DNA of 64,000 nucleotides. Source: Artocarpus heterophyllus. Its lineage: Eukaryota > Streptophyta > Magnoliopsida > Rosales > Moraceae. A model generated the notes under the pieces. It worked only from the letters and a program-made list of their open reading frames with translations. It was not told the DNA's origin and ran no database searches. The DNA lies in the NCBI GenBank assembly GCA_025403435.1, contig CM046342.1, positions 18,561,596 through 18,625,595 on the forward strand, read 5' to 3'. The position numbers were made by a program, and so were the translations under genes. Position 1 is the first letter of the stretch; each line of letters begins with the position of its first letter. Of this stretch, positions 15,210 to 54,547 are shown piece by piece.

Positions 15210-17492
15210 TCACTCGGCTTTCCATGAAGATAGAGGTGGAGTATCAGAGTCCCTCCAAGTAAATGAGGTATCGCCATACCTGTCACCTTTTACGGCATCT
15301 GCTGAAGCCAAAGATTCGAGCTCAGCCATTTCTTCCAGTGTCAGTTTCACCGATAGAGCCCCAATATTCTGGTTAAAATTCTCAATTTTGGTGGTTCCGG
15401 GGATGGGACAGACATCATCTCCTTGGTGATGAACCCAGGCCAAAGCTAGCTGCGCAGGAGTGCATCCTTTTCTGGCTGCTAATTCATTGATCCGCTCAAA
15501 TACTGTTTTGTTATGCTCAAGGTTTTCGCCTTGAAACCTGGGCAAATGCTGCAATAAGAAGTAAGCATGTTCTGTCACCCTTCCGCGCAGCACTAAATTT
15601 TCTCAACAATCATCATGTTCCAACCGAAGTTCAATTTCTTCAGCATCGCGAGATATGAAGAGGCCTCGGATGTGGTTGTAAGGAAGGTAATTTTCAATGA
15701 ATAATCAATTAGCTTTATGGTTGATGACAAAGAGAGGAACTTCAATTTGATCAATAGTAACATAGGATTACAGAGTTCAATCAACCAGCCATTACAGTGC
15801 AATTAAACAACAATTTGATGTTCTGCTCGTAGCAAATGCAATAAAAACTGAGGTTATGTATTTTGAAGATTAACCGAATCAGTCAGTTGCATCTGCTTTA
15901 ATAAACTAGAATATCTTGGAGACTAGAAGTCCGCAACAAAAACAAGACCATAAATTTTGAAGGAAAGGCATGCCAGCTACAAAGAGACAATATGTTGGCA
16001 TTTGATACGTAGAAATATAAAAGTTTCAGCAAGCACAAAAGTATTGATTAGGCAACAAAGTTGTTTGAAATGCACACAAGATAAAAACTTAAGTATAGTA
16101 ATTCTTGGGAAATGAACAAACCTTACGAAAGTCGTTATCAGACAAAGTTTCTAGAAGCTTAGGCCCAGAAGACAAGAAACCTCGTCCTAGAGGACTGTAT
16201 GCAACAATACCAATCCCAAGTTCCCTAATAAATCAAGAACATAGCGTCATTAACAAGTGCATAATTGATAAACTTAGAAACTACCGATTTGCAACGAGCC
16301 TGACCTGCATGTAGGGATAAGTTCTTCTTCAACATCTCTTTCCCACAAGGACCATTCCAACTGCACAGCTGTTATTGGATGGACAGCATGAGCTCTTCTT
16401 ATTGTTGAAGCAGATGCCTCAGACAAACCAATGTACTTTATTTTACCCTCTTCAACCAGCTTCTTCAGCTCCGCCACCTTGGACAGCAGATGATATTAGG
16501 AAATTTCAACCATAACTATAAGCTTTCCCAAGATATTACCAAAAAAAAAAAAAAAAAACCCTCGCACTAGCGTTATCGGACCAAGATTGAAGAAATAGAA
16601 TCGGGAGTGAAATACACTAACATAGAGGAATAGAACTTAAGGAGAGAAAACAGAGAGATCTGAAGACAAAACGTGGACTTAAGAGGAAAAAAAAAATCTA
16701 AAACTCAATATTTATTCATGATCCACAGCTTAATTGAAATAACAATCACTAAAATATTCATAAAGAAAATAAAGATGACAAGAAGAAGATAAACTTAAAT
16801 AAATCTCAAGTAATCCAATAGATAAACATAAACTTAAAATTAGAATAAACATTTTAGTTAACTAAATTTTTATCTCCATCAACAAGCAATGTCTTTGGAT
16901 GCTTAATTTTAAATGCTAATATTTGTCCAAAATTCATTAAAACCTAAACAGTGCTAAATGCGTGGTTTCTATAAACAACAAAAAACAAAAAACAGAGACG
17001 ATACCGTGACTTCGATTGGGACGCGAGTGTCGACCCGATGCTGGTAATAGAGATCGATGCAATCGACATCGAGTCTTTTCAAGCTCGCCTCGCAAGCGGC
17101 TCTCACGTACGCCGGATCGCCGTGAATCTCTCTCTTTCCGTCGGCATAGCTGATTCCGAACTTACTCGCCAACTCCACTTTCTCCCTCACGCCTCCTTTC
17201 AGCGCCTGGGGGAAAAACATCAGCACCAAAAATTGCAAAACCAAGAGAGAGAAAATAAGAGAGAGAAGGTGTGATTGACCTTTCCGAGGAGGATTTCGTT
17301 GGTGAAGGGTCCGTAGATGTCGGAGGTGTCGAGGAAGGTGATGCCGGAGTCGACGGCGTGGTGGATGAGCTTTATCATCTCCGATTCGGGCTTCGGTGGG
17401 CCGTAGAAGGCCGACATGCCCATGCAGCCCAGGCCCTGAGCAGATACCTCCAGGCCCTGAGACCCCAGCTTGATCCTTTTCACCGTCGCCAT
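15210..17492 (-). CDS. Aldo-keto reductase, PCNT115/perakine-reductase-like, five exons, apparently intact
   Basis: Exons on the minus strand: 17280-17492, 17005-17205, 16305-16477, 16122-16224 and 15210-15548. All introns are GT-AG, and the joined frame encodes 342 residues, the normal family length. The start [20 protein letters not shown] is the family's usual N-terminus. Active-site residues are visible: Asp55 and Tyr60 in LDTSDIYGP, Lys86 in ELASKFG, His127 in YYQHRVD. The C-terminus ends in [11 protein letters not shown] as in plant relatives. These are cytosolic NADPH-dependent carbonyl reductases acting on aldehydes and ketones; some act in alkaloid metabolism or stress detoxification. 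The substrate cannot be told from sequence. The upstream region carries a 44-bp tandem repeat with TGACG/ACGTCA motifs. A decayed partial copy lies 4-5 kb away in the same orientation. Confidence 0.93.
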
Positions 17493-17572
17493 ATGTTTTC
17501 TGATCTGAGGTGAAGTCTTTCTTCTTTTATTTGGTTTCTGTTGGTGAGGCCTGCGAGCGAGGAGTCAAGTTG

Positions 17573-27850: not shown

Positions 27851-30800
27851 CTAAGTGAGTAAATACAACAAATTTCGCATCCCCATAGCTTCCACATGCC
27901 TCTTGAAGACTCTCCCAGTAAGTGTCTTCATAAATGGATCAGCTAAATTGTCCTCTGACGCGATCTTGCACACCGTGACATGACCGCCCTCAACGAAGTC
28001 CTTTATCACATGATACTTCCGATCAATATGCTTATTCTTCTTCTGAAATCTTGGTTCCTTAGCATTAGCTACCACCGCACTGTTATCACAGTACAGTGAT
28101 ACCGCTTTATCCATACTAGGAACTACCTCAAGATCCTCAAGGAACTTACGGAGCCACACTGCTTCTTTCGAAGCATCACTAGCCGCCACATACTCGGCCT
28201 CCATCGTTGAATCCAAAGTGCAATATTGCTTCGCACTTCTCCAACTGATGGCACTGCCGCCCAGAGTAAACACAAACCCCGAAGTCGATTTCCTAGAATC
28301 CAGACAGGATTGAAAATCCGAGTCAGTGTATCCTAGAGGAGTTAAGTCCTCACCCGAATACACAAGCATATACCCTCGAGTCCTTCTCAGGTACTTGAAA
28401 ATATGCTTTACCGCAACCCAATGGTTCGGTCCTGGATCTGCCTAAAATCGACTTACAATCCCAATCGCATAGCTAATATCCGGTCGTGTGCAAAGCATGG
28501 CATACATGAGACTACCCACTACCGAAGCATAAGGCACCTTCTTCATGTATTCTCTTTCTTCATAAGACTTTGGAGAGTCTTTCTTAGAAAGAGTAATACC
28601 AGACCTAGATGGTTGCCCACCTTTCTTGGAATCCTGCATTGTAAACCTCCTGAGAATTTTATCTATGTAGCTGGCTTGTGACAAAGCTATCATTTTGTTC
28701 TTCCTATCTCGAAAAATCTGGATACCGAGAACAAAATTAGCCTCACCCAAGTCCTTCATGTCAAACTGCTTGGTCAACCATAATTTGACCACAACGTCAT
28801 TGTCAATTAGCAGAATGTCATCTACATAGAGCAATAGAAAAACCACATTCCCATCCTTAATGTGTTTGTAAACACATGGTTCATCCACATTTTGTGAGAA
28901 CCCATAAGTCTTGGTCACTTGATCAAATCTTATGTTCCAAGAACGGGATGCCTGCTTAAGTCCATAAATTGACTTTAGTAGCTTACAAACCTTACCCTCT
29001 TGACCTGCGACCTTGAACCCGTCTGGTTGTACCATATAAATGGACTCATCAAGATAGCCCTTTAGAAAAGCCGTCTTGACATCCATCTGCCAAATCTCGT
29101 AGTCGAGAGCGGCAGCTATGGACAAGAGAATCCGGATGGACTTAAGAATGGCTACAGGCGAAAGGGTTTCCTCATAATTGATTCCTTCCTTTTGTGTATA
29201 ACCCTTAGCTACTAGTCTAGCCTTAAAGGTTTCGACCTTTCCATCCACTCCCCTTTTCCTCTTGTAGATCCACTCACACCCTATGGGTTTTACCCCTTCG
29301 GGAAGATCCACAAGCTCCCAGACCCGATTAGTCTCCATAGACTTCATCTCTATGTTCATGGCCTCTATCCAGAGTCTTGAATCAACATCCTCCATAGCTT
29401 CTGCGTAAGTATAAGGATCCCTATCATGTTCATCCGGTTCAGCCAAGAAGACCTCCCCATTGAACATATACCTCTCAGGCTGACGCCCGATCCTCCCACT
29501 ACGCCGAAGCCCCTGAGGTTGCTGTTCAGGTTTGTTTGGTTTTTCTACATCGATCGGAATGGTTTCGTTCGAAACCTCTGAAGTGAACGGATCACCCCTT
29601 AACTCCTCAAGCACCACTTTGCTTTGAGGTTTAAAGTTGTCCATGTAACTCTCCTCAAGAAAAGTTGCATTAGTTGAAACCACGACTTTATTTTCCTTTG
29701 GGTTATAAAAATAACCTCCTTTAGTCCCTTTTGGATATCCTACAAACACGCAAACTTCCGAACGCGCTTCCAACTTATTCATATCCTTAAACAGGACATG
29801 AGCCGGATATCCCCATATGCGAATATGGTTTAAGGATGTCTTCCTTCTTGTCCACAACTCATGAGGAGTTTTAGGGACCGATTTTGAAGGCACATTGTTC
29901 AAAAGATAACATGCAGTTTGTAGTGCATATCCCCAAAAGGATAAAGGCAATGATGAATAACTCATCATGGACCTAATCATGTCCAACAAAGTCCTATTTC
30001 TTCTCTCCGCTACGTCATTCTACTGCGGAGTGCCCGACGCAGTTAAATGGGATAAAATCCCATTTTCTAACAAGTGTCCTAAGAACTCATCAGAAAGGTA
30101 TTCCCCACCTCGATTGGATCGACGTGCCTTTATGGGTCTACCCAATTGCTTTTTCACTTCAGCCCGCAACTCCCTGAACTTGTCAAAAGTTTCGCTTTTG
30201 TGGTGTATTAGGTACACATACCTATATCTTGAGTAATCATCAATAAAAGTGACGAAGTACTCATACCCTCCTCGTGCCCGGATGTTCATCGGTCCGCAAA
30301 CATCACTATGCACAAGTTCTAAAACCCCTTCGGCCCTATTGCCCTTAGACCCGTATGGTCTTTTGGTCATTTTACCCTCCAAACAAGATTCACATTGTGG
30401 TATAGATTCCACCTTTAAGTGACTTAAAGGTCCATCCCTTACCAACCTTTGAATCCTATTCAAGTTAATATGACTAAGGCGCAAATGCCAAAGATAAGTT
30501 GTATTTGAGTGAGAAGTTTTAAGTCTTTTAGAGTCATTATCATTTATCTCAACATTAAGCAATAAGTCCATCTTAGGTTTGATAAAATATAGATTATTTT
30601 GCATCCATCCAGAACAGATAAAAGATTTGTTTTTACGAATCACCACTTTTTCATTAAAAGATACCACGTAGGAGTCTTTAAATAAAGAAGATACAGAAAT
30701 TAAATTCTTTTTAAATTTAGGAACATAAAAACAATCCCGCAAAATTAAATTCCTATAATTATCAAAGTAAAGATGGACATCTCCCACTGCTTCCGCCGAG

Positions 30801-31792
30801 ACCAAGGATCCATCGCCCATCCGAAGCGTTAAGTCTTCACACAGCAGACTTCTCGTTTCTTTGAATCCCTGTAGAGAAACACAAACATGATTAGTTGCAC
30901 CGGAATATATGACCCAGATGTCACTAGATTCCTCAACCAAACAAGTTTCTAAATACAGAAGATCACACCTACCTCCTTTGGAAAGGAAGTCCTTGCAATG
31001 CTTCTTAATATGCCCGACCTTTCCACAGAAGAAGCACTTAAGCTTCTTTGGGTTCTTCTTCTTCTTCTTCTTGCTTTTGGTAGCAGCAGGAATAGAAGAC
31101 TTCTCGTTCTTGGTCCGTTGCTTCTTTGCATTCCCTGAGTTAGGATTGGAACCAGAAGCAGCTACCATGTTGGCCTCACCACCCGCAGGAGACTCCCTGA
31201 TCAGCAGTTCAAACTCCTGTAACTGTTTCATCAGTTCTGTCAATGTCATATCCCGTCTATTGCTCAAATTAAAAGTAGCTCTAAACGGAATGAATTCCTT
31301 AGACAGGGTCTCAAAGACCATAGTCATCTGAGTTTCAGCATCGATGTCGGCTCCATTGGTTTGAGCCTCAGCGAGGTAACCCATGACCAACATCATGTGC
31401 TCCTTTACAGATGTCCCCGGTCTCTATCTACAGTTTAAGAGTTTTCGAAGCGCCCCTTGCCTCTTTGTTATGGCATGGCCTCTAAACATATCCTCAAGAT
31501 TATCCAAGATCTACTTCGCAGTCTTATAATCCTGATGTTGAGCCTACAGCACATTGTTCATGCTGGCCATAACATAGCAGCGGGCCTGATCATTAGCATC
31601 TTTCCAACAATCGTACACTTGGAATTGCTCATTAGATGAGTCTCCCATAGGCTCGGGAGGACAAGGGGTTGTCAGTACATATTTCAATTTCTCAAAGGAC
31701 AGGACAATATCCAGGTTTTGTTTCCAATCGTTATAATTCTCACCGGTTAATTGGTTTTTGTCAAGTATCGAAGATAAAGCTTTTTTAGACAT
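27851..31792 (-). pseudogene. Copia gag-pol polyprotein, copy B, nearly intact
   Basis: Start codon at 31790-31792, stop at 27851-27853. Open stretches are 31544-31792, 30020-31396, 28442-29989 and 27851-28369. The breaks I see are single nonsense changes: TAG at 31544-31546, 31511-31513, 31424-31426, about 30017 and 28442-28444, each explainable as CAG/CAA to TAG. Zinc knuckle CFFCGKVGHIKKHC (30992-31039) is intact. The protease triad is changed from DSG to YSG. Integrase zinc and catalytic regions lie at about 29900-30480. The RT box YVDD (28817-28828) is intact, and RNase H fills 27900-28360. The frame is otherwise continuous, so this is the youngest-looking of the three copies. Confidence 0.93.
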
Positions 31793-38804: not shown

Positions 38805-41800
38805 ATGTCTAAAAACACTTTATCATCGATACTTGACAAAAATCAATTAACCGGTGAGAACTATAACGATTGGAAATGGAATCTGGATATCGTCCTGTCC
38901 TTTGAGAAACTGAAATATGTACTAACAACCCCTTGTCCTCCTGAGCCTACGAGAGACTCAAGTAATGAGCAATTCCAAGCATATGATCACTGGAAAGATG
39001 CTAATGATCAGGCCCGCTGCTATGTTATGGCTAGCATGAACAACGTGCTACAGGCTCAACATTAGGATTATGAGACTGCGAAGTAGATCTTGGATAATCT
39101 TGAGGATATGCTTGTAGGCCAAGCCATAACAAAGCGGCAAGGGGCGCTTCGAAAACTCTTAAACTATAGACAAAGGCCGGGGACATCTGTAAAGGAGTAC
39201 ATGATATTGGTCATGGGTTACCTCGTCGAGGCTCAAACTAATGGAGCTGACATCGATACTGAAACTCAGATGACTATGGTCTTTGAGACTCTGTCTAAGG
39301 AATTTATTCCATTTAGAGCTATATTTAATTTAAGCAATAGATGGAATATGACCTTAACAGAACTGATGAAACAGTTACAGGAGTTTGAACTGCTGATCAG
39401 GGAGTCTCCTGTAGGTGGTGAGGCCAACATGGTAGCTGCTTCTGGTTCCAATTCTAACTCTGGGAATGGAAAGAAGCAACAGGCTAAAAACGAAAAGTCT
39501 TCGATTCCTGCTACTACCAAGAGCAAGAAGAAGAAGAAGAAGAACCCGAAGAAGCTTAAGTGCTTCTTCTATGGAAAAGTAGGGCATATCAAGAAGCATT
39601 GCAAGGACTTCCTTTCCAAAGGAGGTAGGTGTGATCTTCTATGTTTAGAAACTTGTTTGGTTGAGGAATCTAGTGACATCTGGGTCATGGATTCCGGTGC
39701 AACTAATCATGTTTGTGTTTCTCTACAAGGGGTTCAAAGAAACTAGAAGTCTGCTACATGAGGACTTCACGCTTCGGATGGGTGATGAATTCTTGGTCTC
39801 AGCGGAAGCAGTGGGAGATGTCCATCTTTATTTTGATAATTATAGGAATTTAATTTTGCAAGATTGTTTTTATGTTCCTAAATTTAAAAGGAATTTAATT
39901 TTTGTAGTTTGTTTATCTAAAGACTCCTACTTGGTTTCTTTTAATGATAAAGTGGTGATTCGTAAAAATAAATCTTTTATCTGTCCTGGATGGATGCAAA
40001 ATAATCTATATTTTATCAAACCTAAGATGGACTTATTGCTTAATGTTGAGATAAATGATAATAACTCTAAAAGACTCAAAACTTCTCACTCTAATAAGAC
40101 TTATCTTTGGGATTTGTGCCTTGGTCATATTAACCTGAATTGGATACAAAGGTTGCTAAGGAATGGACCTTTAAGTCACTTAAAGGTGGAATCTATACCT
40201 CAATGTGAATCTTGTTTGGAGGGTAAAATGACCAAAAGACCATTCGGATCTAAGGGAAATAGGGTCGAAGGGGTTCTAGAACTTGTGCATAGTGATATTT
40301 GTGGACCGATGAACATCCGGGCACGAGGAGGGTATGATTACTTCATCACTTTTATTGACGATTACTCAATATATGGGTATGTGTACCTGATGCACCACAA
40401 AAGCAAAACTTTTGACAAGTTCAGGGAGTTTCGGGCTGAAGTGGAAAAGCAATTGGGTAGACCCAAAAAGACACTTCGATCAGATCGAGGTGGGGAATAC
40501 CTTTCTGATGAGTTCTTGGAACACTTGCTAGAGAATTGGATTTTATCCCATTTGACTGCGCCGGGCACTCTGCAGTAGAATGGCGTAGTGGAGAGAAGAA
40601 ATAGGACTTTGTTGGACATGATTAGGTCCATGATGAGTTATTCATCATTGCCTTTATCCTTTGTCAAAATCGAAACTTTTGACAAGTTTAAGGAGTTTCG
40701 GGCTAAAGTAGAAAGCAATTGGGTAGACCCAAAAAGGCACTTCGATCAGATCGAGGTGGGGAATACCTTTCTGATGAGTTCTTGGAACACTTGTTAGAGA
40801 ATGGGATTTTATCCTATTTGATTACGCCGGGCACTCCGTAGCAGAATGGCGTAGTGGAGAGAAGAAATGGGACTTTGTTGGACATCATTAGGTCCATGAT
40901 GAGTTATTCATCATTGCCTTTATCCTTTTGGGGATATGCACTACAAACCACATGTTATCTTTTGAACAATGTGCCTTCAAAATCGGTCCCTAAAACTCCT
41001 CACGAGTTGTGGACGGGTAGGAAGACATCCTTAAACCATATTCGCATATAGAGATGTTCGGCTCATGTCCAGTTTAAGGATCCGAATAAGTTGGAAGCAC
41101 GTTCGAAAGTTTACGTGTTTATAGGATATCCAAAAGGGACTAAAGGGGGTTATTGTTATAACCCAAGGGAAAATAAAGTCATGGTTTCAACTAATGCAAC
41201 TTTCCTTGAGGAGAGTTACATGGACGACTTTAAACCTCGAAGCAAAGTGGTGCTTGAGGAGTTAAGGAGTGATCAAATCACTTCGGAGGTTCTGAATGAA
41301 ACCATTCCGATTGATGTAGAAAAACCAAACAAACCTGAACAACAACCTCAGGGGTTTTGGCGTAGTGGGAGGATCAGGCGTCAACCTGAGAGGTATATGT
41401 TCAATGGGGAGGTCTTCTTGGCTGACAGAGATCCTTATACTTACGTAGAAGCTATGGAGGATGTTGATTCAAAACTCTGGACAGAGGCCATGAACATTGA
41501 GGTGAAGTCTATGCAAACTAATCAGGTCTGGGAGCTTGTGGATCTTTCCGAAGGGGTAAAACCCATAGGGTGTAAGTGGATCTACAAGAGGAAAAGAGGA
41601 ATGGATGGAAAGTTCAAAACCTTTAAGGCTAGACTGGTAGCTAAGGGTTACACGTAAAAGGAAGGAATCGATTATGAGGAAACCTTTTCGCCTGTAGCCA
41701 TGCTTAAGTCCATCCGGATTCTCTTATCCATAGTTGCTGCTCTCGACTAGGCAGATGGATGTCAAGATGGCTTTTTTGAATGGCTATCTTGATGAGTCCA

Positions 41801-43002
41801 TTTATATGGAACAACCAGCCAGGTTCAAGGTCACAGATCAAGAGGGTAAGGTTTGTAAGCTGCTAAAGTCAATTTATGGACTTAAGCAGGCTTCTCGTTC
41901 TTGGAACATAAGATTTGATTAGGTGATCAAGACTTATGGGTTCTCACAAAATGTGGATGAACCATGTGTTTATAAACACATTAAGGATGGGAAGGTGGTT
42001 TTTCTACTGCTCTATGTAGATGACATTTTGCTAATTGGCAATGACGTTGGGGCATTGTCATCGGTCAAATTATGGTTGACCAAGCGGTTTGACATGAAGG
42101 ACTTATGAGAGGCTAATTTTGTTATCGGTATCTAGATCTTTCGGGATAGGAAGAACAAAATGATAGCTTTGTCTCAGGCCGGCTACATAGATAAAATTCT
42201 TAGGAGGTTTGCAATGCAGGATTCTAAGAAAGGTGGGTAACCATCTAGGTCTGGAATTACTCTTTCTAAGAAAGACTCTCCAAAGTCTTATGAAGAAAGA
42301 GAATACATGAAGAAGGTGCCTTATGCTTTGGCAGTGGGTAGTCTCATCTATGCCATGCTTTGCACACGACAGCATATTAGCTATGCGGTTGGGATTGTAA
42401 GTCAATTTCAGGCGGATCCAGGGCCGAACCATTGGGTTGCAATAAAGCATATTTTCAAGTACCTGAGAAGGACTCGAGGGTATATGCTTGTATATTCGGG
42501 TGAGGACCTGACTCCTCTAGGATATACTAACTTAGATTTTCAATCCTGTCTAGATTCTAGGAAATCGACTTCGGGTTTTATGTTTACTCTGGGAGGCGGT
42601 GCCATCAGTTGGAGATGTGTTAAGCAAGATTACACTTCAGATTCAATGATGGAGGCTGAGTATGTGGCGGCTAGTGATGCTGCGAAAGAAGTAGTGTGGC
42701 TCCGCAAGTTCCTTGGGGATCTTGAGGTAGTTCCTGGTATGGATAAAGTGGTATCACTGTACTATGATAACAGTGCGGCGGTAGCTAATGCTAAGGAACC
42801 AAGATTTCAAAAGAAGAGTAAGCATATTGATCGGAAGTATCATGTGATAAAGGACCTCGTTGAGGGCGGACATGTCACAGTGTGCAAGATTGTATAAGTG
42901 GATAATTTAGCTGATCCATTTACGAAGACACTTACTGAGAGAGTCTTCGAGAGGCATGTGGAAGCTATGGGGATTCGAGATTTGTTATATTTACTCACTT
43001 AG
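38805..43002 (+). pseudogene. Copia gag-pol polyprotein, copy C, broken
   Basis: Start ATG at 38805, stop at 43000-43002. The protease retains DSG (near 39690) and the RT box YVDD (42013-42024). The zinc knuckle reads CFFYGKVGHIKKHC, losing one Cys. Stops include 39063, 39084, about 40576, 41656 and 41920. The frame is shifted near 39730. A 266-bp tandem duplication in the integrase region (second unit about 40661-40926) shifts it again, and a short deletion removes the codons before 41750. It cannot make a complete polyprotein. Confidence 0.92.
40395..40926 (+). repeat. 266-bp tandem duplication within copy C integrase
   Basis: AGCAAAACTTTTGACAAGTT through CATTGCCTTTATCCTTT appears twice, with equivalent positions 266 bases apart (for example GTGGAGAGAAGAAAT at 40588 and 40854). 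The units differ by a few substitutions and a short gap, so it is not new. Confidence 0.85.
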
Positions 43003-43016
43003 TGCAAGTGGGAGAT

Positions 43017-44834
43017 TGTTAGACATGTATGCCCTAAGGAGTAAAAATATAATAAGTTTTTGGAGATATTTTTATTAATAAAGAATTTATTCATTATTTA
43101 TATACCAAATATTGTCCTCTTTATGTTCATATTTGTTGAATTTATGTTAAGCAAACAATAGTCTGAGACTGTCGGTCTAAACCTTAAGAATTGGGCATAT
43201 GATGGACGGATTATGTGGAAGACATGATTCTTAAGGTGATGGTCTAAATCATACGATCCGCAATCGAGGGAATAAAGTTGGGCGTTTTATTCATGCAAAG
43301 ATTGTTATGTTGTCTATATCTCTTTTGGGAGATGGTTTGTCTTGACCATCAGAGGAGGACTCCATGAATAGAAACATTAGCACGTTGTCATAAGTGAGAT
43401 GTGTTGGATTGGGACATAAAGGAAATTGATTTGGATTGATAATTCTGTCTTGGAAAATCGATTCGCTTTAGACAATCATTTGTGTTGTATCTTAATCTTG
43501 AGATGAATAGTGGGCCTGTTGTCTCTTTTGATGTACCAAAGGGGGACACCCACATCTTAATAGTGGTATGCATGCTCGTATATTGGAGGCATGACTCTTG
43601 ATAGCGTAAACCTATTATTCATAGATATGGAATCCATAGCTCCTCTTTAGGAGTAATGATATCCTCTTATATGCGTTATCCTGTAATTGAAAAACTGGAG
43701 CACTCAACCATTTGGATACATAGGTGTAACCGAATGGTGTACTGTCTTTAGATGGTAAGTTTTTTAATGGTGAGATAATGGAACGTAAGATAAAAATAAT
43801 AGGGAAGGGAAGGTAAGGCAAAACTTGTCCTTAAGCCGATTATGGATTATCATATGGGGATACGATACACTATGATATGTCATAGAGACTTAGCTATGCG
43901 AGCTTCGTAATTCTATGTAGTTCAAGAGTGCAGCTCCAAGCTTTTAGTGGAGTAGTGTTGGAGTTGATTATTATGAAATGTATATCTGGCATATTGAGTT
44001 TCATAATTATCGAATGCTTGAACTATATAGGTCCATTTGGTCCCCTTTGCTAGCTCACAACATCCTGTAACGACACGGCGTGCTTTTTCAATAATTGGGG
44101 ACTTGTGTCGGATTTATCAGATTGGTTAAAATTTGGAAGAATAAAATAATTCATGTCTATTTATCAGTTGAGTTAATTTTATAAGAAATTAATTCAAGAT
44201 AAACTTGTTGAATTATTGGGATCGGATAATTCTTGTCTGTTTATCGATTGATTTAATTTTGGATAAATTAGATCAAGATAAACTTGTAGAATTATTGGGA
44301 ATTGATTTATTTTCTTAGAGATTAACTAGATAAAGTTGTTTTGATCAGATAACTTCTCTATTGGATTTTTTAAATTAAAACATAGACTTTATCCTATAGA
44401 ATCTCAGGTGAAAAATAAAAGATTCGTGAGATTTTTTATTCGATAGTTCAGCTTGCCGATGGACGTGTTCGGCCTACCGATGGGACCTGTTTAGCCTGCT
44501 GATCAGCGAAAGATAAGATTACGCATATCCACTTGGATTTTATCAGATATTGATCCAAATTTGATTTTGATCCGAATTTTGAGACCTAATCTGATGAGGA
44601 CTAACCCTAGGACCAACCTCTATAAATAGGGAGTGATTCTCACAAGTTACTTAGATCAATTGAGAGATTAAGAGTGATACACTACTAAGTGAGAATCTTT
44701 AAAACTCCCTGAGAGCTTTTGTTCACAAATCACGAACACTTGTTTTGGGTTCTCTCGATTGGTCGGAAGGAGAGTCACCAGTGTAAGAGCTGTACGTGTG
44801 AGCCCACACTCACTCCAGTCGTGGATAGAGAATA
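43017..44834 (+). repeat. 3' LTR of copy C, first part
   Basis: Begins TGTTAGACATGTATGCCC after the purine tract GTGCAAGTGGGAGAT. TATA box TATAAATAGG at 44621-44630. It is interrupted after GATAGAGAATA by the LOG-bearing element and resumes at 53818. Confidence 0.9.
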
Positions 44835-46282
44835 TGTAACGCCCCTATATGGGGGTTAACAGTTTTTAATGAGATAAAATAAAAATAAATAATAAAAGTA
44901 AAACCTTAAAAATAAAATTTGCCCGGGACTTAAATGAAAACTCTCAACTCAAAAATAAAAATATAAACGACAAATAAACCACAGTTTAATGTAGCACCTT
45001 AAATTTAATAAAATAAAATGTTGTCATCATCATTTTAACCCTCAACACATTGTAATACAGTCACAGAAAGTAACAATTGATGCTTACATTATCATGAAGA
45101 ACATTCTCAACAATTGAAGCAGTCCCAATGTAATATAGTTACATCACTTCCTCAACTATATTTCTCGTAGCCACCTCACACTTAGTGAGTCCTGAAAAGA
45201 TATAAACATAAGGGAATGAGCGACACTATGCTCAGTAGAGAAAGCCATTACTCACATTTAGGTTTTTATCATTACCACATTAAAATCTGCATGGTTAGTA
45301 AGTCACATCATATTCCAGATTATGAGGTTTATTATGATCACATCTTATGGATACCGTAGTTAATCATTACCAAGTGTCATAATTACACATGTATACAAAT
45401 ATTACCAATCATCATTGTTCCTAGGTATCCATGTTAAATTGAGTATCACTCAACTCATCGAAACCCAAATGGGCGCACTTGATCACCCTATAAACATTCC
45501 AAGGGTGTTCCGGTGAGGGGACATCAAGCCCCGAGTCCTCACCAAATCGATTCCTGTACAGTGTGTTCTGGGACTTTCAACCCAAGGAAGCGTCATCGCC
45601 TTCCCCCTATTTTACCTTTTAGGGTATTCATGCCCAAGGACGTAACCGTCGCCCTCTTCATGTCTCATAATTTCTCTATATTAAATCATTATTAATAGAG
45701 TCAGTTTTCCTAACCATGCTTCTCAATTTATAACATGTGTCAATTCATTATGTTCCTCGCCGTACAATACAAGACGAGTCCATGTCATAGTTTCATATGT
45801 GATACTCATATAATATCAGTTCAACATAGATATATATATTGCGGCAAAACAATCAATTTTAATTCTATAAAAACCTCACAAAAATGAGTAATAGAATCCC
45901 TACCTTTCAAGCTTATCAACAGTCTCTTAATCCTGGAATCAATTAACGTTAGCTCCATACTCCCTTGATCTTGAACTCCAAGCAAAACAGATCCAGTTGT
46001 ATCTCGCTGTATCTACGAAGCATCCTCTGTAGTGCTCCTCGAGCGACTATGAATGGCTAGGAATGCTTCCTGGAGATCATACATTCTTGAAAACGTCATT
46101 CTGGACTCCGATACTACTGTTTGAATCGCCTCGATTCGCGTGCAGTCGGTACCGGATGATTTTCATCGGAGTGGAATTTGCTCAAACGGAGGTCAACATT
46201 GCATCCAGAGCATCGAAACGAGTCAGGAGGCGGTCTCGGATCTTCGATCGGAGGTCCGGATCACAAAATTCCAATTTAGCCT

Positions 46283-46348
46283 TTGACTGGCCGTTGACCG
46301 GCGTTGACCACCGTTGACCGGCGTTGACCGACTTTGACCGTCATTGAC
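46283..46348. promoter_or_regulatory. Seven TTGAC cores at near-10-bp spacing (3' LTR copy)
   Basis: TTGAC begins at 46283, 46294, 46304, 46314, 46324, 46334 and 46344, all but the first followed by C. TTGAC[CT] is the W-box core recognised by WRKY factors. The array is duplicated in the other LTR. Confidence 0.55.
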
Positions 46349-47146
46349 CGGCGTCAATCGGGGTCCGTTGGCAGCTGGGCTCGGGCCTACCCCCCCTAAA
46401 TCGACCCTTCTGAGTCCAATGGCGGGGTCAATTTCACCCAATTCTGCCTCTAACATAGCGGGTCGTGAAGTACAACGTTGGTAGAAATGGATGAGCTCCG
46501 ATCTTGATTCTCCGACGATGGAAACCTGAAATTGGCTGAGGGCTTTTGCTACCCATCCTCCTATGAGCATTTCCCCTCATCCAATTTGAAGAAACGTGGC
46601 TGGGAAGAGCCAAAACGGAGGCTCCCGCGGCGGTTGACGGCGGCGTTGGCCGTTCTCCGGCGAAACCGGCTCCTTCCGTGCAATTGATCGAAGGGTTTTA
46701 CTCCCCTTGATCCTCTGAACTCATTGAGAGGGGTGGTGTCAGTCACCTCCTCCGGCAAGGCGGAGTTCCACCATGGGGGGGCGGTGCACGGTGGCAATAG
46801 GCGGGCAGAGCAATCCGGCTGTTGTTGATCTGCCACCAAGGGTGGGTTTTGTTCCTCTCATCATGGTGGTCGTGTAGGAACAAGAATCACGTCGATCGGA
46901 CGTCGGACGGCGAAGATATCTCGTCAGAAAGAAATGGGTTTTGCCGCCACTTTGGGCGGCGCGTGTGGTCTCCTCCGGCGGCGTTTTGGGCGGCGCGGCA
47001 CCTCGTTGGATTCAGCTCGTCGAGAGCTTTCCATTGGTGCGGGAGGTGTCGAAAACGGATGCCGAAATCTCAAACGATCTTTGAGGAGAGAGAGAGAATT
47101 TTTTAGAGAGAGAGAGTTTCGGATTATGAGAGATTTTTTGATTTTT

Positions 47147-47158
47147 TTTATATATATA
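47147..47158 (-). promoter_or_regulatory. TATA-like box in the 3' LTR copy
   Basis: Minus-strand TATATATATAAA, 54 bases inside the LTR, with a CT-rich stretch downstream. It is the counterpart of 53747-53758. Confidence 0.45.
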
Positions 47159-47212
47159 CTAGGTAATTAATCTAATTACCTTAATACCCTTAGGAGAATA
47201 ACGGGTGTCACA

Positions 47213-47230
47213 GCTCTACCCCCCTTAAAG
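47213..47230 (-). other. Polypurine tract of the LOG-bearing element
   Basis: Minus strand CTTTAAGGGGGGTAGAGC immediately before TGTGACACCC. It gives the element's orientation. Confidence 0.8.
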
Positions 47231-48156
47231 AAATTTCGTCCTCGAAATTTCAATTCTAGTAATACTAGTAAAAATTATGATTCCAATTCCGAGTCTAAAC
47301 CGTTAATGTTGTTTATCTTCCAAATTTAAGTTATCGTATCTCCACTCGTTTACTTGCATAATAAATCTTACTCCTAAATCCCTCAATGAGAGTATTTCTG
47401 ACAAGTTTCAACTTATAACACCGTATAATAGTCTAAGAATCTGATCAGGCATACATATTGACCATATCATGATTCCAGTCCTTCATTGTCCATAGACTGT
47501 GATTTACAATCACATATAAGGAGATTGCCAGAGAAATTTTATATACTTCATCTTTAGGTTCCTTTTCCTTTTTGAGTAAGGAAAAGTCAAATATATTTGA
47601 TTTCATACCTCAACTAATAAACTAAAACATAATCATAAAACATATATCACAAACACTTCTATTCAAAACCATACATTAAACTTATTCATAGAGATATTAA
47701 ACGGAATCTCAGAGTTGCAGACAAACCCGACATATTTTTCATTAAACAGCTATCCTCATGACACAAACATTCAATCCAAATAATATACTCATATTTCATA
47801 TGGAATATCCCCATAACTGACTCTGGTACTTCCACATAATATTAACAGAATATTACACATTACAAACATAATACGGATACGTTTCGAGAGTACAAGGCAC
47901 TCCGTATACCAGCTATCCATATCATGCATGCTTAGAGGATACAAAAACATCGATAAACAAAAGATCGGACCTTAAGAAGGATGCGTTTCGAGAGCATCAA
48001 GTACTCCGTATCCAGCCATCCTGGCATTAGGCTCAATGAATCTAAAAGATTTAACAACGACGTACCACAAGAAACACAGAATACAAGGCAAACGGTTATT
48101 CGTAACACACGAAATACGGACACACATGCCTACATGCCAAAGATAAAACAAAAAGA
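47231..48156 (-). other. Non-coding 3' region downstream of the LOG ORF
   Basis: AT-rich, no ORF supported. An imperfect direct repeat about 105 bases apart (around 47878-47922 and 47982-48022) shares CGTTTCGAGAG and CTCCGTAT with a similar following CCAGC.ATCC segment. Confidence 0.5.
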
Positions 48157-48846
48157 TTACAGATGGAGATTCAAATCAATTGGCCGCTCCCAGCTTTCCC
48201 TTTCCCATTCAAGCTTGGATGTTGCAGTGTCGGATTCTGGATGTATGATTTGCATTTTATCTATCAATTCCTCAGCTGTTGAAGCAGTAACAAAGATTTG
48301 TCTCTCCGATTCTGTAGTGATGTTTTCTTCCACAGCGTAATCTAGAAATTTCAAAAGACCGTCATAAAAACCATTTACATTCAGCAGTCCTAAAGGTTTG
48401 GAATAAAAGCCCAACAATTGCCCACAAGCAACTACGAATATTTCCTCAAGAGTACCTAGACCACCAGGTAATGCTATAAAAGCATCAGAATTATAGATTA
48501 TGTCTTTAAAATTTCTAGGGATACTCCTGACTCCTTCTCCCTTACCTATGGCTTCCTTACAAAGGTTTCCTTCAAATGGAATATGAGGCCAAATTCTTAC
48601 ATCAGTAGCGTCGCTAGACCTAACTGCTAGTGCCATATTTTCCATCATTTTTATACTACCACCCCCATAGATTATGTTAATCTTCTTGCGTGCTAGGACT
48701 TGCCCTAAGTGATTTGCAGCTTCTAAATAAGCTTTATCTTTTCCAAGGCTGGAACCACAAAAGACACAGACATTCTTTATTTTCTTCGTGGACTGGGAGG
48801 TAGACATATTTGGTTTATAGAAGTGGTTGCTTAATGTCTGCTCCAC
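48157..48846 (-). CDS. LOG-family protein (cytokinin riboside monophosphate phosphoribohydrolase-like), intronless, element-borne
   Basis: A 229-residue ORF without introns, full family length. The fold's landmarks are present: VCVFCGSS at 26-33, GGGS at 61-64, DAFIALPGGLGTLEE at 121-135 and KPLGLLNVNGFYDGLLKFLD at 150-169. Plant LOG enzymes release free cytokinin bases from their riboside monophosphates. Here the motif following GGGS is KMMEN instead of the usual GLMG-like text. The position 23 residues before the motif Glu135, normally the catalytic Arg of MHxRK, is Asn112; an Arg sits one place earlier. Activity is therefore doubtful. Plant LOG genes usually have several introns, so capture through spliced RNA is likely. 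It lies in sense with the element, 603 bases downstream of the other ORF. A second possible start is Met14 (48807). Confidence 0.85.
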   Translation of the reverse strand: MEQTLSNHFYKPNMSTSQSTKKIKNVCVFCGSSLGKDKAYLEAANHLGQVLARKKINIIYGGGSIKMMENMALAVRSSDATDVRIWPHIPFEGNLCKEAIGKGEGVRSIPRNFKDIIYNSDAFIALPGGLGTLEEIFVVACGQLLGFYSKPLGLLNVNGFYDGLLKFLDYAVEENITTESERQIFVTASTAEELIDKMQIIHPESDTATSKLEWERESWERPIDLNLHL

Positions 48847-49449
48847 TTAGACTTCGGGTTCTACATGATATTTTAAAGATGAGAAATATACAAAAAGGGC
48901 TAAAGAGATAGACGAGTAGGTAATGAAAAGGTAATCCAAAGATTTAAACAAAATCTTGTGCGGATAAGAAAGTATGATAAGGTGATTGATAGTTTACAGA
49001 AAATCTGATTCACTTTTTGAAAAAGATTAGACTCTAATTGTATAACTTTTGACAATTGAGAACAATTCGACAGAAGACCCTCATGACACAACTGTAGACT
49101 TTTTGACAAATATACACCAAGTCTAGAAATTTAATATAAACGACAAATACTGTAGAACTTTTGAAATTTGAGACACAATCTTGAAATATCTGGATAAGCT
49201 TTTCAAAATTCAAACATATTACTGTACCGTATGTGACGTGTCTGATAAGATAATATATTTTATTATATATATATTTAAGAAAATCATAAATTAAATAAGA
49301 TATTAACACTTACTGTATCAATCTAATAATCACAATTATTTCAAACACAAAAGCAAATATTCTGAGTAAAAGAAAAACACAAACTGTTGAACATCAGCTA
49401 AAACTGCTTCAAATAAGTAAAGACTAAATAACCTTTATAGAGCGATGAC
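48847..49449 (-). other. Spacer between the two captured ORFs
   Basis: 603 bp, AT-rich. Short ORFs here show no recognisable features. Confidence 0.5.
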
Positions 49450-49971
49450 TTATTCCCCATCCAGTTTTCTTATGGCTTGGCAAACAGGATCTAGAAATAC
49501 CATATTCCTGAGGCGTTGTCTTTCTGTATAAAATTTAGGCCAGAGTTTAAAAATAGCTCCTTGAACATATCCACTAGGGTGACCGTGGAGAGGAGGATGG
49601 ATGCTATCCAAGTTCTCCTTTGAAAGTCCATCCCTACAAAACCTTATTTTATCCTCTCTATTCGTAGACATATAACCAGGTGAAGTACATTTATCGTTAC
49701 AATTTTGTCTTCCACATTTGTTACAAGTGACCACGATGGCACGAGCTCTTCTTTTCATTGCACTTCGACTGGTACCTGTTCCTGGTAAACCGACATCTTG
49801 ACTAAAGTCACTCGGACGGATTTTCCCCTCTATTAACATTCTCACATCACAAGGGATACCAAAACGCATAAGAATCCACAACCGAGTAATTCTAGCCTTG
49901 TATTTCTTTCTGAGAATCTTTTGGGAGAGTAATGGGAAATACTTTCTCAGGTGTTGGTACTTTGGGTCCAT
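49450..49971 (-). CDS. Basic cysteine-rich protein, 173 aa, zinc-finger-like, possibly related to carla-like virus CRPs
   Basis: First ORF of the element's interior, intact and intronless. The N-terminal 30 residues are rich in Lys/Arg. A hydrophobic-basic segment RLWILMRFGIPCDVRMLIEG is at 30-49, then an Arg-rich block KRRAR at 73-77. A Cys cluster C83-x2-C86-x4-C91-x3-C95 is followed by a PGYMS-like turn at 98-102. The order (helix with Gly-x-Pro-x-Asp-Val, basic patch, Cys cluster, Pro-Gly-x-x-Ser) resembles the small cysteine-rich nucleic-acid-binding proteins at the 3' end of carlavirus-type genomes. The Cys spacing is not identical, so this is a hypothesis. The C-terminal 70 residues match nothing I recognise. 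An alternative is a retroelement nucleocapsid-like or plant zinc-finger protein. Confidence 0.55.
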   Translation of the reverse strand: MDPKYQHLRKYFPLLSQKILRKKYKARITRLWILMRFGIPCDVRMLIEGKIRPSDFSQDVGLPGTGTSRSAMKRRARAIVVTCNKCGRQNCNDKCTSPGYMSTNREDKIRFCRDGLSKENLDSIHPPLHGHPSGYVQGAIFKLWPKFYTERQRLRNMVFLDPVCQAIRKLDGE

Positions 49972-51394
49972 GATGAGATGAAAGAAGAGTAAATAGAAAG
50001 GAAAAATTAAGATAGTAAATTGCAGAATCCTAGAATTCCTTCTTCTTTTAGAGAAAAAGAAGAATTTTTAATGAAAAAGAAGAGGATTTGCGATTTAGAG
50101 AGAAAATAACAAATTAAGAGAGAAAAAGTGAACTCGGAGAAATAAGCTCCTATGCACAGTAAACGTATATGTAAACAATAATTAAACCACTGTATATGAC
50201 ACGTATAGAGACCACGTGGGAGAGACAGTGTGAATCAAACTGATTTAAGATTTGAACTAGGCCCAAATGTTCTAAGTTGAAAATGGTCAGGTTGTTTCGG
50301 GCCTTAACACATTTAGAACGAGTTAAATAACAAACATAAAATTGAAAACCAATTCGTATGAATCTTAAACCCAATTCAAAGCCCACTATAGATAAAGTTA
50401 ACTATAAACAACAAATCTAATTTAACGACAACAAGGATCTTCCTGAATGATATTTAAAATCATTTCATAACAACACAATCTTCCAGCAACTCAAATAATT
50501 TTGTTTTAATCAAAACCTTATTGAACAATACATACACCCATATGTTATTCATAATACTTAACATCTATCAATGGATTCATCATCATTACTACCAAGGGTT
50601 TAGAATGCGACTAACCTTGAAATCAATACGATTTACGTCTTCCAACGTAGACCATATCAATGAACAAAGACACTTGATGTTACTACTTAAGAACATCTAC
50701 AATCCCCACAATTCTACTTATACAATATATAATTTCCTCATATAACGAAACCTTAGGTAACCAAAAGATTCACTGATACACTTAAATACAATGTACGTAA
50801 CAAAATATTCCAATTTTGAGATTCATGCATTCTAGACTTTACACAGTCTCAACAGACCAAAAGTCTAACATTTATCTCTCTCAAGATTCAATACCATGAT
50901 TCCCAACTTATATCATATTCCTCAAATATATAGAACTTTTAAGAAAAGACATTGATACTTATGTGCTCCATCGAATCCACACATAATCATTACTTAGGTT
51001 TGAATCAATTATGAAAAATTTGGCATATCTATGTCAAACTTTAAAATCAATAAATCAAGCCTTATATTTCTTATTGTTTTTCACGAGACAAAAGGCTCTT
51101 AAATCCTCGTATCTATACGAATTTCTCATCGTTTATACGAATTAAATATGCTTATAGATCCAAATATTATACGAATCTCTCATAAGCATTCTACTTATAA
51201 ACTCATTCCATATAATTATCATTCCCTTATAACTATTAATACTTTCCATTCTATGGCCTTTCCATGTTACATCCTTTTAGACTGTATAAATCAATGTGAA
51301 GGTTCATTTTGATGATGACAATGAAAATTCAGCTTCAAAACCATCTCAAAAATATATTTTTTAAAGTGGTGCTACACTCCCTAGGTTAACCGAA
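49972..51394 (-). other. Untranslated leader of the LOG-bearing element
   Basis: 1.4 kb between the primer site and the first ORF, AT-rich, with no supported coding. Short CT/GA-rich tracts lie just upstream of the ORF start (49980-50130). Confidence 0.55.
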
Positions 51395-51411
51395 CCTAGG
51401 CTCTGATACCA
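51395..51411 (-). other. Primer binding site of the LOG-bearing element, initiator Met tRNA
   Basis: Minus strand TGGTATCAGAGCCTAGG, 7 bases from the LTR end. It proves that 51419-53812 is the 5' LTR. Confidence 0.85.
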
Positions 51412-52868
51412 AAAATTCTGTAACGCCCCTATATGGGGGTTAACAGTTTTTAATGAGATAAAATAAAAATAAATAATAAAAGTAAAACCTTAAAAATAAA
51501 ATTTGCCCGGGACTTAAATGAAAACTCTCAACTCAAAAATAAAAATATAAACGACAAATAAACCACAGTTTAATGTAGCACCTTAAATTTAATAAAATAA
51601 AATGTTGTCATCATCATTTTAACCCTCAACACATTGTAATACAGTCACAGAAAGTAACAATTGATGCTTACATTATCATGAAGAACATTCTCAACAATTG
51701 AAGCAGTCCCAATGTAATATAGTTACATCACTTCCTCAACTATATTTCTCGTAGCCACCTCACACTTAGTGAGTCCTGAAAAGATATAAACATAAGGGAA
51801 TGAGCGACACTATGCTCAGTAGAGAAAGCCATTACTCACATTTAGGTTTTTATCATTACCACATTAAAATCTGCATGGTTAGTAAGTCACATCATATTCC
51901 AGATTATGAGGTTTATTATGATCACATCTTATGGATACCGTAGTTAATCATTACCAAGTGTCATAATTACACATGTATACAAATATTACCAATCATCATT
52001 GTTCCTAGGTATCCATGTTAAATTGAGTATCACTCAACTCATCGAAACCCAAATGGGCGCACTTGATCACCCTATAAACATTCCAAGGGTGTTCCGGTGA
52101 GGGGACATCAAGCCCCGAGTCCTCACCAAATCGATTCCTGTACAGTGTGTTCTGGGACTTTCAACCCAAGGAAGCGTCATCGCCTTCCCCCTATTTTACC
52201 TTTTAGGGTATTCATGCCCAAGGACGTAACCGTCGCCCTCTTCATGTCTCACAATTTCTCTATATTAAATCATTATTAATAGAGTCAGTTTTCCTAACCA
52301 TGCTTCTCAATTTATAACATGTGTCAATTCATTATGTTCCTCGCCGTACAATACAAGACGAGTCCATGTCATAGTTTCATATGTGATACTCATATAATAT
52401 CAGTTCAACATAGATATATATATATTGCGGCAAAACAATCAATTTTAATTCTATAAAAACCTCACAAAAATGAGTAATAGAATCCCTACCTTTCAAGCTT
52501 ATCAACAGTCTCTTAATCCTGGAATCAATTAACGTTAGCTCCATACTCCCTTGATCTTGAACTCCAAGCAAAACATATCTAGTTGTATCTCGCTGTATCT
52601 ACGAAGCATCCTCTGTAGTGCTCCTCGAGTGACTATGAATGGCTAGGAATGCTTCCTGGAGATCATACATTCTTGAAAACGTCATTCTGGACTCCGATAC
52701 TGCTATTTGAATCGCCTCGATTCGCGTGCAGTTGGTACCGGATGATTTTCATCGGAGTGAAATTTGCTCAAACGGAGGTCACCATTGCATCCAGAGCATC
52801 GAAACGAGTCAGGAGGCGGTCTCGGATCTTCGATCGGAGGTCCGGATCACAAAATTTCAATTTAGCCT

Positions 52869-52934
52869 TTGACTGGCCATTGACCGGCGTTGACCACCGT
52901 TGACCGGCGTTGACCGACTTTGACCGTCGTTGAC
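52869..52934. promoter_or_regulatory. Seven TTGAC cores at near-10-bp spacing (5' LTR copy)
   Basis: TTGAC begins at 52869, 52880, 52890, 52900, 52910, 52920 and 52930. The units are variants of TTGACCGGCG. One helical turn per site would place all cores on one face of the DNA. WRKY binding is inferred from the W-box consensus only. Confidence 0.55.
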
Positions 52935-53746
52935 CGGCGTCAATCGGGGTCCGTTGGCAGCTGGGCTCGGGCCTACCCCCCCTAAATCGACCCTTCTGAG
53001 TCCAATGGCGGGGTCAATTTCACCCAATTCTGCCTCTAACATAGCGGGTCGTGAAGTACAACGTCGGTAGAAATGGATGAGCTCCGATCTTGATTCTCCG
53101 ACGATGGAAACCTGAAATTGGCTGAGGGCTTTTACTACCCATCCTCCTATGAGCATTTCCCCTCATCCAATTTGAAGAAACGTGGCTGGGAAGAGCCAAA
53201 ACGGAGGCTCCCGCGGCGGTTGATGGCGGCGTTGGCCGTTCTCCGGCGAAACCGGCTCCTTCCGTGCAATTGATCGAAGGGTTTTACTCCCCTTGATCCT
53301 CTGAACTCATTGGGAGGGGTGGTGTCAGTCACCTCCTCCGGCAAGGCGGAGTTCCACCATGGGGGCGGCGGTGCACGGTGGCAATAGGCGGGCAGAGCAA
53401 TCCGGCGGTTGTTGAGCTGCCACCAAGGGTGGGTTTTGTTCCTCTCATCACGGTGGTCGTGTAGGAACAAGAATCACGTCGATCGGACGTCGGACGGCGA
53501 AGATATCTCGTCGGAAAGAAATGGGTTTTGCCGCCACTTTGGGCGGCGCGTGTGGTCTCCTCCGGCGGCACTTTGGGCGGCGCGGTACCTCGTTGGACTC
53601 AGCTCGTCGAGAGCTTTCCATTGGTGCGGGAGTTGTCGAAAACGGATGCTGAAATCTCAAACGATCTTTGAGGAGAGAGAGAGAATTTTTTAGAGAGAGA
53701 AAGTAGAGAGAGAGAGTTTCAAATTATGAGAGATTTTCTGATTTTT

Positions 53747-53758
53747 TTTATATATATA
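53747..53758 (-). promoter_or_regulatory. Probable TATA box of the LOG-bearing element
   Basis: Minus-strand TATATATATAAA lies 54 bases inside the 5' LTR. CTCTCTCT-rich sequence about 30-80 bases downstream fits a plant transcription start. If so, U3 is extremely short and nearly the whole LTR is transcribed. Confidence 0.5.
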
Positions 53759-53817
53759 CTAGGTAATTAATCTAATTACCTTAATACCCTTAGGAGAATA
53801 ACGGGTGTCACAGAATA

Positions 53818-54005
53818 GCAAAGAAGATCAGTTGGTTGAGGCTCTTCTAGAACGTTATTTCTCTTCACAGATTGCGGGAGGTTCTTCAGCATACAAAGGT
53901 TAGTAAGATCTGGTTAATTTATGCATATAGCATGTCAAACTTGTGTTTTGAAAATTACTCTGATGAAAAAATTTTAAAATTCCGCTGCGCACTGTTTTTC
54001 CAACA
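53818..54005 (+). repeat. 3' LTR of copy C, last part
   Basis: Resumes at GCAAAGAAGATCAG and ends TGTTTTTCCAACA, followed by the target duplication TTATT (54006-54010). Confidence 0.9.
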
Positions 54006-54547
54006 TTATTGAGCTTTATGAAAGACACTTTTGAAGTTGAGGCAATCTCCTTTAAACTTTACATGTAATTTGTCGATCTAGCAGGATGCATCTTATCCAA
54101 CCTTTGTAGTCGTAATGTTTAGTGACGTATCAAGTATCCATTGGGCTTGTTAGAGCTTATACGCATAGGCCGCCCCTTTGTGAAAAACTTAGCCCATGTT
54201 GGTTATCCCTTAAAAAAGTAATCGACAAGAGTTGAGTGGACTCTAAGAGGTAGAGGTGACTCCATAAGATAAAATCATTTTCGAGAAAAGGAGGCGACTA
54301 TGTGGTTAGTTGGATTTCGATAGCATGGTTGCCTAGTAAGGTTGTCATAACTCCTTATTGGGTCTTACCATTTGGCTCACACTTGATGTGAGCTCAATGG
54401 GTGTCCTGATTGATTGCGATAGCCACCTCATGACTACTGTGTAAGGACATGCCAAAACAGAGGACACGACTGCATTTTATATTGGCTCCTAGTCTGAGGC
54501 CTTGCCTAGACGTAGTGCCTCCAGGGGTGATCAGTCTCCGTTGTGTT
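54006..54547. other. Tat-type element segment between two insertions
   Basis: Part of the non-coding region after pol. It continues leftward to 24508 and rightward to 57149 once the insertions are removed. No gene seen. Confidence 0.6.

Follow-up and report, generated by a model that had tools for sequence, protein, structure and literature searches.

We analysed a 64,000-nucleotide stretch of the Artocarpus heterophyllus genome (contig CM046342.1, positions 18,561,596 to 18,625,595), hereafter called the window, in which positions 44835-53812 are occupied by a retrotransposon flanked by long terminal repeats (LTRs), its sense strand being the minus strand. The hallmarks of retrotransposition that an earlier sequence-only reading had listed were all located. 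The 5′ LTR covers 51419-53812 (2394 bp, minus strand) and the 3′ LTR covers 44835-47212 (2378 bp, minus strand); the LTR ends are TG..CA. The 5-bp GAATA target site duplication (TSD) is present at 44830-44834 on the left and at 53813-53817 on the right, and the two copies match at 5/5 positions. The primer binding site (sense TGGTATCAGAGCC, 51399-51411, minus strand) starts 7 nt past the 5′ LTR, and the polypurine tract (sense TTTAAGGGGGGTAGAGC, 47213-47229, minus strand) adjoins the 3′ LTR. The LTR pair shows 29 differences over 2379 aligned sites, 24 of them transitions, which amounts to a Kimura two-parameter distance (K2P) of 0.0123, in agreement with the divergence of 1-1.5% first estimated by eye. 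At a rate of 6.5e-9 per site and year, this distance corresponds to about 0.95 My.

The 4.2-kb interior contains two intact sense open reading frames (ORFs). The first encodes a cysteine-rich protein (CRP) of 173 aa (49450-49971, minus strand), probably of carlavirus type, with a CX2CX4CX3C arrangement at residues 83-95. The second encodes a LOG-like protein of 216 aa (48157-48807, minus strand), which keeps a PGGLGTLEE motif, has lost the MHxRK motif and ends in a DLNLHL tail of the LxLxL form. As the sequence-only reading had stated, no gag-pol was found in the interior, where the longest sense frame besides these two ORFs measures 91 codons from stop to stop. The element is an LTR retrotransposon but it is not autonomous. 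We take its primer site TGGTATCAGAGCC to be of the initiator-Met type; this site and a reading that looks like the end of pol (NFEDEISLRGVEL) before the purine tract bear only a resemblance to Tekay/Del chromoviruses, a lineage defined by reverse transcriptase and chromodomain, the element having no pol. A 10-bp GTTGACCG-type unit forms a short tandem repeat in both LTRs (46281-46370 and 52867-52956); the TTGAC cores inside it resemble W-boxes, and the repeat could bear on LTR promoter activity. The flanks of the insertion (44701-44834 and 53818-54017) form one open frame (..SWIENSKEDQLVEALLERYFSSQIAGGSSAYK..) over the joined empty site, and a possible splice donor comes after it. Since this frame is open across the junction, the element may have landed in a host exon.

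The genome to which the window belongs (985 Mb) was searched with both proteins. With the LOG-like protein, the best 150 of 6109 first-look candidates were all full-length and at least 96% identical, and 148 of these 150 were free of stops. With the CRP, the best 150 of 5804 candidates were all at least 98% identical, none contained a stop, and one score was common to most of them. Both searches cover best hits only, which enriches for intact copies; they show that the family is large and not how large it is. Twenty further loci (10 kb each) were chosen from the LOG list, and LTR sequence, the CRP ORF and the LOG ORF were present in 20/20. TSDs were analysed in 16 elements, the window's included, after omission of 5 of the 21 (L009, L011, L023, L026 and L027, which are nested, tandem, truncated or have a second primer site): ten elements have perfect 5-bp duplications, all ten different, two match at 4/5 positions and four have none that could be placed. 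Across the examined elements the LTR K2P ranges from 0 to 0.017. The family moving the same two ORFs that the sequence-only reading had predicted is thus real: it consists of high-copy, recently active, non-autonomous LTR retrotransposons. A lone insertion was rejected, both searches having returned many near-identical copies, and so was an assembly chimera, the same parts recurring at 20/20 further loci. In 13 of the 20 fetched loci (L009-L028) no match was found to window LTR positions 1-1257, the remainder being about 93-99% alike. The upstream half of the LTR therefore varies between subfamilies, and promoter exchange between them is possible from these alignments. At L011, L020 and L027, extra LOG copies or LTR pieces lie near the first one, which suggests that these loci hold tandem or nested family copies.

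The pair of genes was also found at diverged loci. When the genome was searched with P0057, a divergent LOG homolog, the best 150 of 5840 candidates were 46-57% identical, in several bands; they appeared as long single-frame matches, some with stops, spread over many contigs and not exon by exon. Four loci from different bands were fetched (L049-L052), and in 4/4 the CRP precedes the LOG, with both genes on one strand. Identity to the window is 63, 69, 52 and 88% for the LOG and 74, 95, 54 and 91% for the CRP at L049, L050, L051 and L052, respectively. L050 and L052 have the interior in common with the window, as well as the initial 48-71 bp of the LTR; the LTR body is not shared in the fetched stretch. 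L051, refetched at 10 kb as L054, carries gag (PF03732, 4.5e-9) and aspartyl protease (PF13650, 2.2e-6) ORFs at L054:598-3195, upstream of the CRP-LOG pair, with no recognisable pol in the fetched stretch as judged from the reading frames. On this sequence, L054 represents another family of the same genome, distinct from that of the window element. As its gag and protease backbone is unlike the window element, the pair occurs in at least two retroelement settings. No LTRs were established for L054 or for L053 (L049 refetched), the latter showing only a 260-bp, 82% repeat. A search with the CRP homolog P0143 gave 150 best matches, out of 5298 candidates, that were all 52-54% identical to P0143. 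They probably belong mostly to the window's own family, and the one stop in each was read as the natural stop because P0143 extends beyond it. Outside this genome, equal longest contigs for LOG and CRP clusters (8723 bp for P0057 and P0143, 4511 bp for P0115 and P0136) hint that the two genes share contigs in other sources; equal short longest contigs (734 and 905 bp), too small for both genes, also occur, so that such equality is no proof of linkage. The two-gene cassette is probably older than the window family.

Selection was assessed within the family by comparing nonsynonymous and synonymous variants against the neutral spectrum of the inter-gene spacer. We extracted 39 CRP and 43 LOG copies, the others having failed a 95% length rule or lying outside the fetched stretch; the CRP of L039, out of register or frameshifted, was dropped from the counts, which left 38. 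CRP variants present in at least two of the 38 copies comprise 11 nonsynonymous and 16 synonymous changes (omega-like ratio 0.23, p 1.9e-4), and those present in at least three comprise 5 and 13 (0.13, p 4e-5). CRP singletons are laxer (31:19, 0.55), a pattern that decay after insertion would produce. LOG variants in at least two of the 43 copies are similarly depleted in nonsynonymous changes (8:13, 0.23, p 8e-4), with singletons at 20:15 (0.49). Gapped alignment columns number 27 in the spacer and none in the ORF sets, and 36/39 CRP and 41/43 LOG copies have no internal stop. Between families, Nei-Gojobori dN/dS is 0.13-0.25 for the CRP and 0.15-0.30 for the LOG (seven pairs each, dS about 0.8 or more, several values being near saturation); for the close CRP pair of the window and L050 it is 0.18. 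Purifying selection acts on both genes, among the family copies as well as between diverged families. The selection on the LOG ORF that the sequence-only reading had looked to is thereby borne out; the insertion is neither without other copies nor evolving at a dN/dS near 1.

The LOG-like protein matches PF03641 with 78.4 bits (cut-off 27, E 7.5e-22) and TIGR00730 with 131.7 bits (cut-off 96.35). It resembles AT2G37210 in sequence (E 2e-44) and in predicted fold (Foldseek E 4.4e-16), the structure model having a pLDDT of 74 and a low-confidence tail. From these profiles and this model, its LOG family membership and predicted fold are clear, LOG proteins being cytokinin riboside monophosphate phosphoribohydrolases. 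The PGGxGTxxE motif is retained as PGGLGTLEE. The MHQRK of AT2G37210 is replaced by IPRNF or IPKNF in 43/43 family copies, so that the Arg-Lys motif, which serves in substrate binding, is gone, and GGGSxGLM is partly lost (GGGSIKMM in the window family). The LOGs of L049-L051 retain the Arg of the MHxRK motif and GGGSLGLM. Among the best 120 LOG homologs, 108 have the Arg of MHxRK without the Lys, and both residues are aligned in six (P0003, P0036, P0069, P0105, P0109 and P0112), the LxLxL tail being found among these six only in P0036; the double protein P0002 reads HERKAEM in one repeat. The LOG-like ORF scores 82.7 against the NF058542 equivalog (cut-off 300), and the motif-intact P0105 likewise falls under it with 131.8, so this cut-off is unsuited to plant proteins. 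In a tree of 38 rows, 32 including the window group together with 94/99 support, just under the program's 95 mark and with long outgroup branches. This group is separate from four HERKAEM proteins, and the LOG branch of the window pair measures 1.83 changes per site. Recent capture of an ordinary plant LOG is disfavoured, the window LOG falling within a group whose members come from several plants; this question was judged on the best matches listed, which retroelement copies fill and from which the host's own spliced LOG genes are absent. Because MHxRK and part of GGGSxGLM are lost and the branch is very long, cytokinin activation by the window-family LOG appears doubtful. Thus, where the sequence-only reading had seen a hormone-metabolism gene, the family assignment stands by profile and fold and the activity does not follow. 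The LxLxL sequence is a form of the EAR motif that binds TOPLESS corepressors. It is found at the extreme C-terminus in 42/43 family copies and within the last 18 residues, mostly behind a basic patch, in 103/120 of the best homologs; several of the 17 without it are shorter proteins.

The window CRP alone matches Viral_NABP with an E of 0.0039 and Carla_C4 with an E of 0.097 in Pfam, both under the cut-off. In an alignment of this protein with ten database relatives, Carla_C4 is matched at E ≤ 0.1 by 11/11 members (best 3.5e-7) and Viral_NABP by 8/11 (best 1.9e-7). A profile search returned 903 homologous clusters at E ≤ 0.001; among the 120 of them listed, the named records are plants (Xanthoceras, Populus, Acer, Hibiscus and Orobanche) and single clusters contain up to 566 members. 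Residues C83, C86, C91 and C95 are invariant or at least 90% conserved in the relatives and present in 37 or 38 of the 38 family copies. The profile match spans residues 63-118 of 173, and conservation among relatives runs over the full length. When viral folds were searched with the CRP model, 5 of the 7 best matches bore the names of plant-virus proteins, and three of these, from viruses of the carlavirus genus, were labelled nucleic-acid-binding or silencing suppressor. Viral contigs coding for CRP or LOG relatives were looked for and none was confirmed. Because of the profile evidence, the CRP is likely homologous to the cysteine-rich proteins of carlaviruses. It shares with them a basic stretch and a Cys cluster, with the profile match in mid-protein, but it is borne by a retrotransposon, its profile match is partial and its scores lie below the Pfam cut-offs. 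A private oddity of this element was ruled out for the CRP, a likely carlavirus-type protein with hundreds of homologous clusters. According to the available part of PMC7588395, p12 of Chrysanthemum virus B is both a nuclear transcriptional activator and a cytoplasmic silencing suppressor.

We propose, with slightly less than even confidence, that gag-pol was replaced in this family by an older two-gene cassette, that both of its proteins aid the element in the host, and that copying takes place in trans. The replication proteins would be supplied by a Ty3/gypsy partner, and what keeps the cassette in place would be an action of both proteins on the host that benefits the element. By analogy with its viral counterparts, the CRP may act as a carlavirus-type RNA-silencing suppressor and/or nuclear regulator, lowering silencing or altering host transcription. 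The LOG-like protein would mainly be a LOG-fold scaffold whose EAR-type LxLxL tail recruits TOPLESS-type corepressors, its cytokinin-activating activity having presumably been lost in the family. Such a host-manipulation cassette fits the data better than the movement of a hormone-metabolism gene.

Several points weigh against this proposal. The new role of the LOG-like protein is its weakest link, the EAR/TOPLESS reading being a guess from a short motif, and of the four divergent loci two have an altered tail, DLNLSM at the end of L050 and CDLSL at that of L051. At one of these four loci the CRP lacks its start, and at another it contains a stop. The window CRP scores 17.6 and 13.1 against Pfam cut-offs of 23 and 20.9, modelling of its structure gave a poor result (pTM 0.32), and nothing in the search of viral folds reached E ≤ 0.001, the best value being 0.016. 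No partner element was found, and no search aimed at partners underlies that result. As to selection, indel-bearing copies can escape an extraction rule that demands 95% aligned length and equal length, and LOG copies were picked for their similarity to the LOG, a choice that favours intact LOGs and in which the CRP played no part. LOG variants in at least three copies (8:9, omega-like ratio 0.33, p 0.021) give a weaker signal than those in at least two. Close pairs are laxer than distant ones: LOG dN/dS is 0.47, 0.41 and 0.48 among the window, L050 and L052, and CRP dN/dS is 0.42 and 0.41 for L052 against the window and L050.

These last values bear on an unlikely but not negligible alternative, in which the CRP alone matters and the LOG-like ORF is a slowly decaying passenger, still open since the copies are young. 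An eroded active site, the relaxed LOG ratios among the three closest loci and the mild depletion among variants in at least three copies, in a LOG sample biased to intact copies, would all be expected of such a passenger. Against it stand the depletion of nonsynonymous changes among LOG variants in at least two copies (p 8e-4), the low dN/dS of distant LOG pairs (0.15-0.30) and the retention of the LxLxL tail in 42/43 copies.

The transduction of a working cytokinin-activating enzyme, which would raise local cytokinin and cell division and so aid multiplication of the element, is improbable. The clear LOG fold and family membership (Pfam 7.5e-22, TIGR00730, Foldseek 4.4e-16 to AT2G37210) speak for it, together with the retained PGGLGTLEE and, at L049-L051, the retained Arg and GGGSLGLM; they are countered by the replacement of the Arg-Lys pair in 43/43 window-family copies, by GGGSIKMM and by the branch of 1.83 substitutions per site. 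Very improbable is the repeated uptake by retroelements of a host gene pair, one gene from a LOG subfamily and the other encoding a cysteine-rich protein of the host. Some homologs do appear as ordinary predicted genes in records from Populus, Acer, Xanthoceras, Hibiscus and Orobanche, and the backbones vary between families, but the 150 best P0057 matches are long single-frame matches on many contigs and not exon by exon, CRP clusters contain up to 566 members, and the pair keeps one order and one strand at 4/4 loci. The least probable account is chance hitchhiking of two functionless fossil ORFs in one recent burst from one source copy: the copies are young (K2P 0 to 0.017), which makes intactness alone weak evidence, and most CRP matches share one score, but dN/dS is well below 1 between families whose synonymous divergence is near or above 1, the pair is present at 4/4 divergent loci and both gene families occur in several plants.

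Returning to the proposed host-manipulation cassette, we also consider a wider version of it, which we hold tentatively and with less confidence than the proposal for this family. It would be an ancient and widespread plant mobile cassette, made of a virus-type CRP that regulates silencing or transcription and an EAR-tailed LOG-derived protein hijacking TOPLESS-type corepressors, carried on varied LTR backbones and able to bring elements that lack gag-pol to very high copy number; the CRP would have a common origin with that of carlaviruses, and may have been exchanged with them. A non-autonomous family keeps two selected accessory genes and no gag-pol, and it is therefore plausible that the family needs what these proteins do. 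What makes retrotransposons retain captured genes thus becomes directly testable, and the link to a class of plant-virus proteins would offer a possible route by which viruses and retrotransposons exchange counter-defence genes. To our knowledge, and as far as the available parts of the literature go, plant retrotransposons have mostly been described by their gag-pol, and accessory genes have been reported with their roles little tested.

LOG sequences in retrotransposons have precedents. Steinbauerova et al. in 2011 reportedly described two Athila-like elements with similarity to LOGL4; the mark of such elements would be an Athila-type gag-pol, and the window element has no gag-pol. YgdH domains of LOG proteins are present in LTR-retrotransposon consensuses of Citrus sinensis, C. 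clementina and, without filter, Populus trichocarpa, in the available part of PMC9289625, which describes its LOG finding as in line with Steinbauerova et al. 2011. These elements carry a LOG-type ORF inside an LTR element, as in the window, so that the "new kind of gene transducer" announced by the sequence-only reading was already in print. They were located through a reverse transcriptase anchor, whereas the window element has no pol; from the same part of that paper, the screen needed reverse transcriptase, which places elements without gag-pol such as ours out of its reach. Its section on LOG mentions neither a partner ORF of virus type nor an LxLxL tail, and neither loss of the active site nor selection on the LOG. 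The paper also describes orchid Ty3/gypsy elements with an AlkB RNA demethylase, in which a captured host-type gene is likewise kept through replication; they differ in the gene, in their 25-kb size and in an enzyme active in vitro (PMC9289625). Tekay elements of sunflower and grasses, in the available part of PMC11728184, have a conserved additional ORF, predicted to be nuclear and with a proposed silencing role. We liken it to the cassette by description only, this ORF lying beside gag-pol on the 5′ side and encoding about 400 aa, proline-rich and with no known domain (PMC11728184). The pairing of a LOG with a virus-type gene and the LxLxL tail were not found in print among the open-licence papers listed on LOG, carlavirus, EAR-motif, Athila and extra-ORF retrotransposons. 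VANDAL DNA transposons encode anti-silencing proteins. They thus hold an accessory gene against silencing, as would the window family, but they are DNA transposons and their proteins are unrelated. LOG in LTR retrotransposons being already known, the surprising part is a selected two-gene cassette with a virus-type partner.

Other features were noted by eye in the remainder of the window. Three related relics of Ty1/copia-type polyproteins lie at 2207-5591, 27851-31423 (minus strand) and 39087-42897; they show zinc knuckle, integrase-like, and reverse transcriptase or RNase H-like stretches split into several frames. Frames resembling plant aldo-keto reductase exons were seen at 15210-15602 and 16969-17526 (minus strand).

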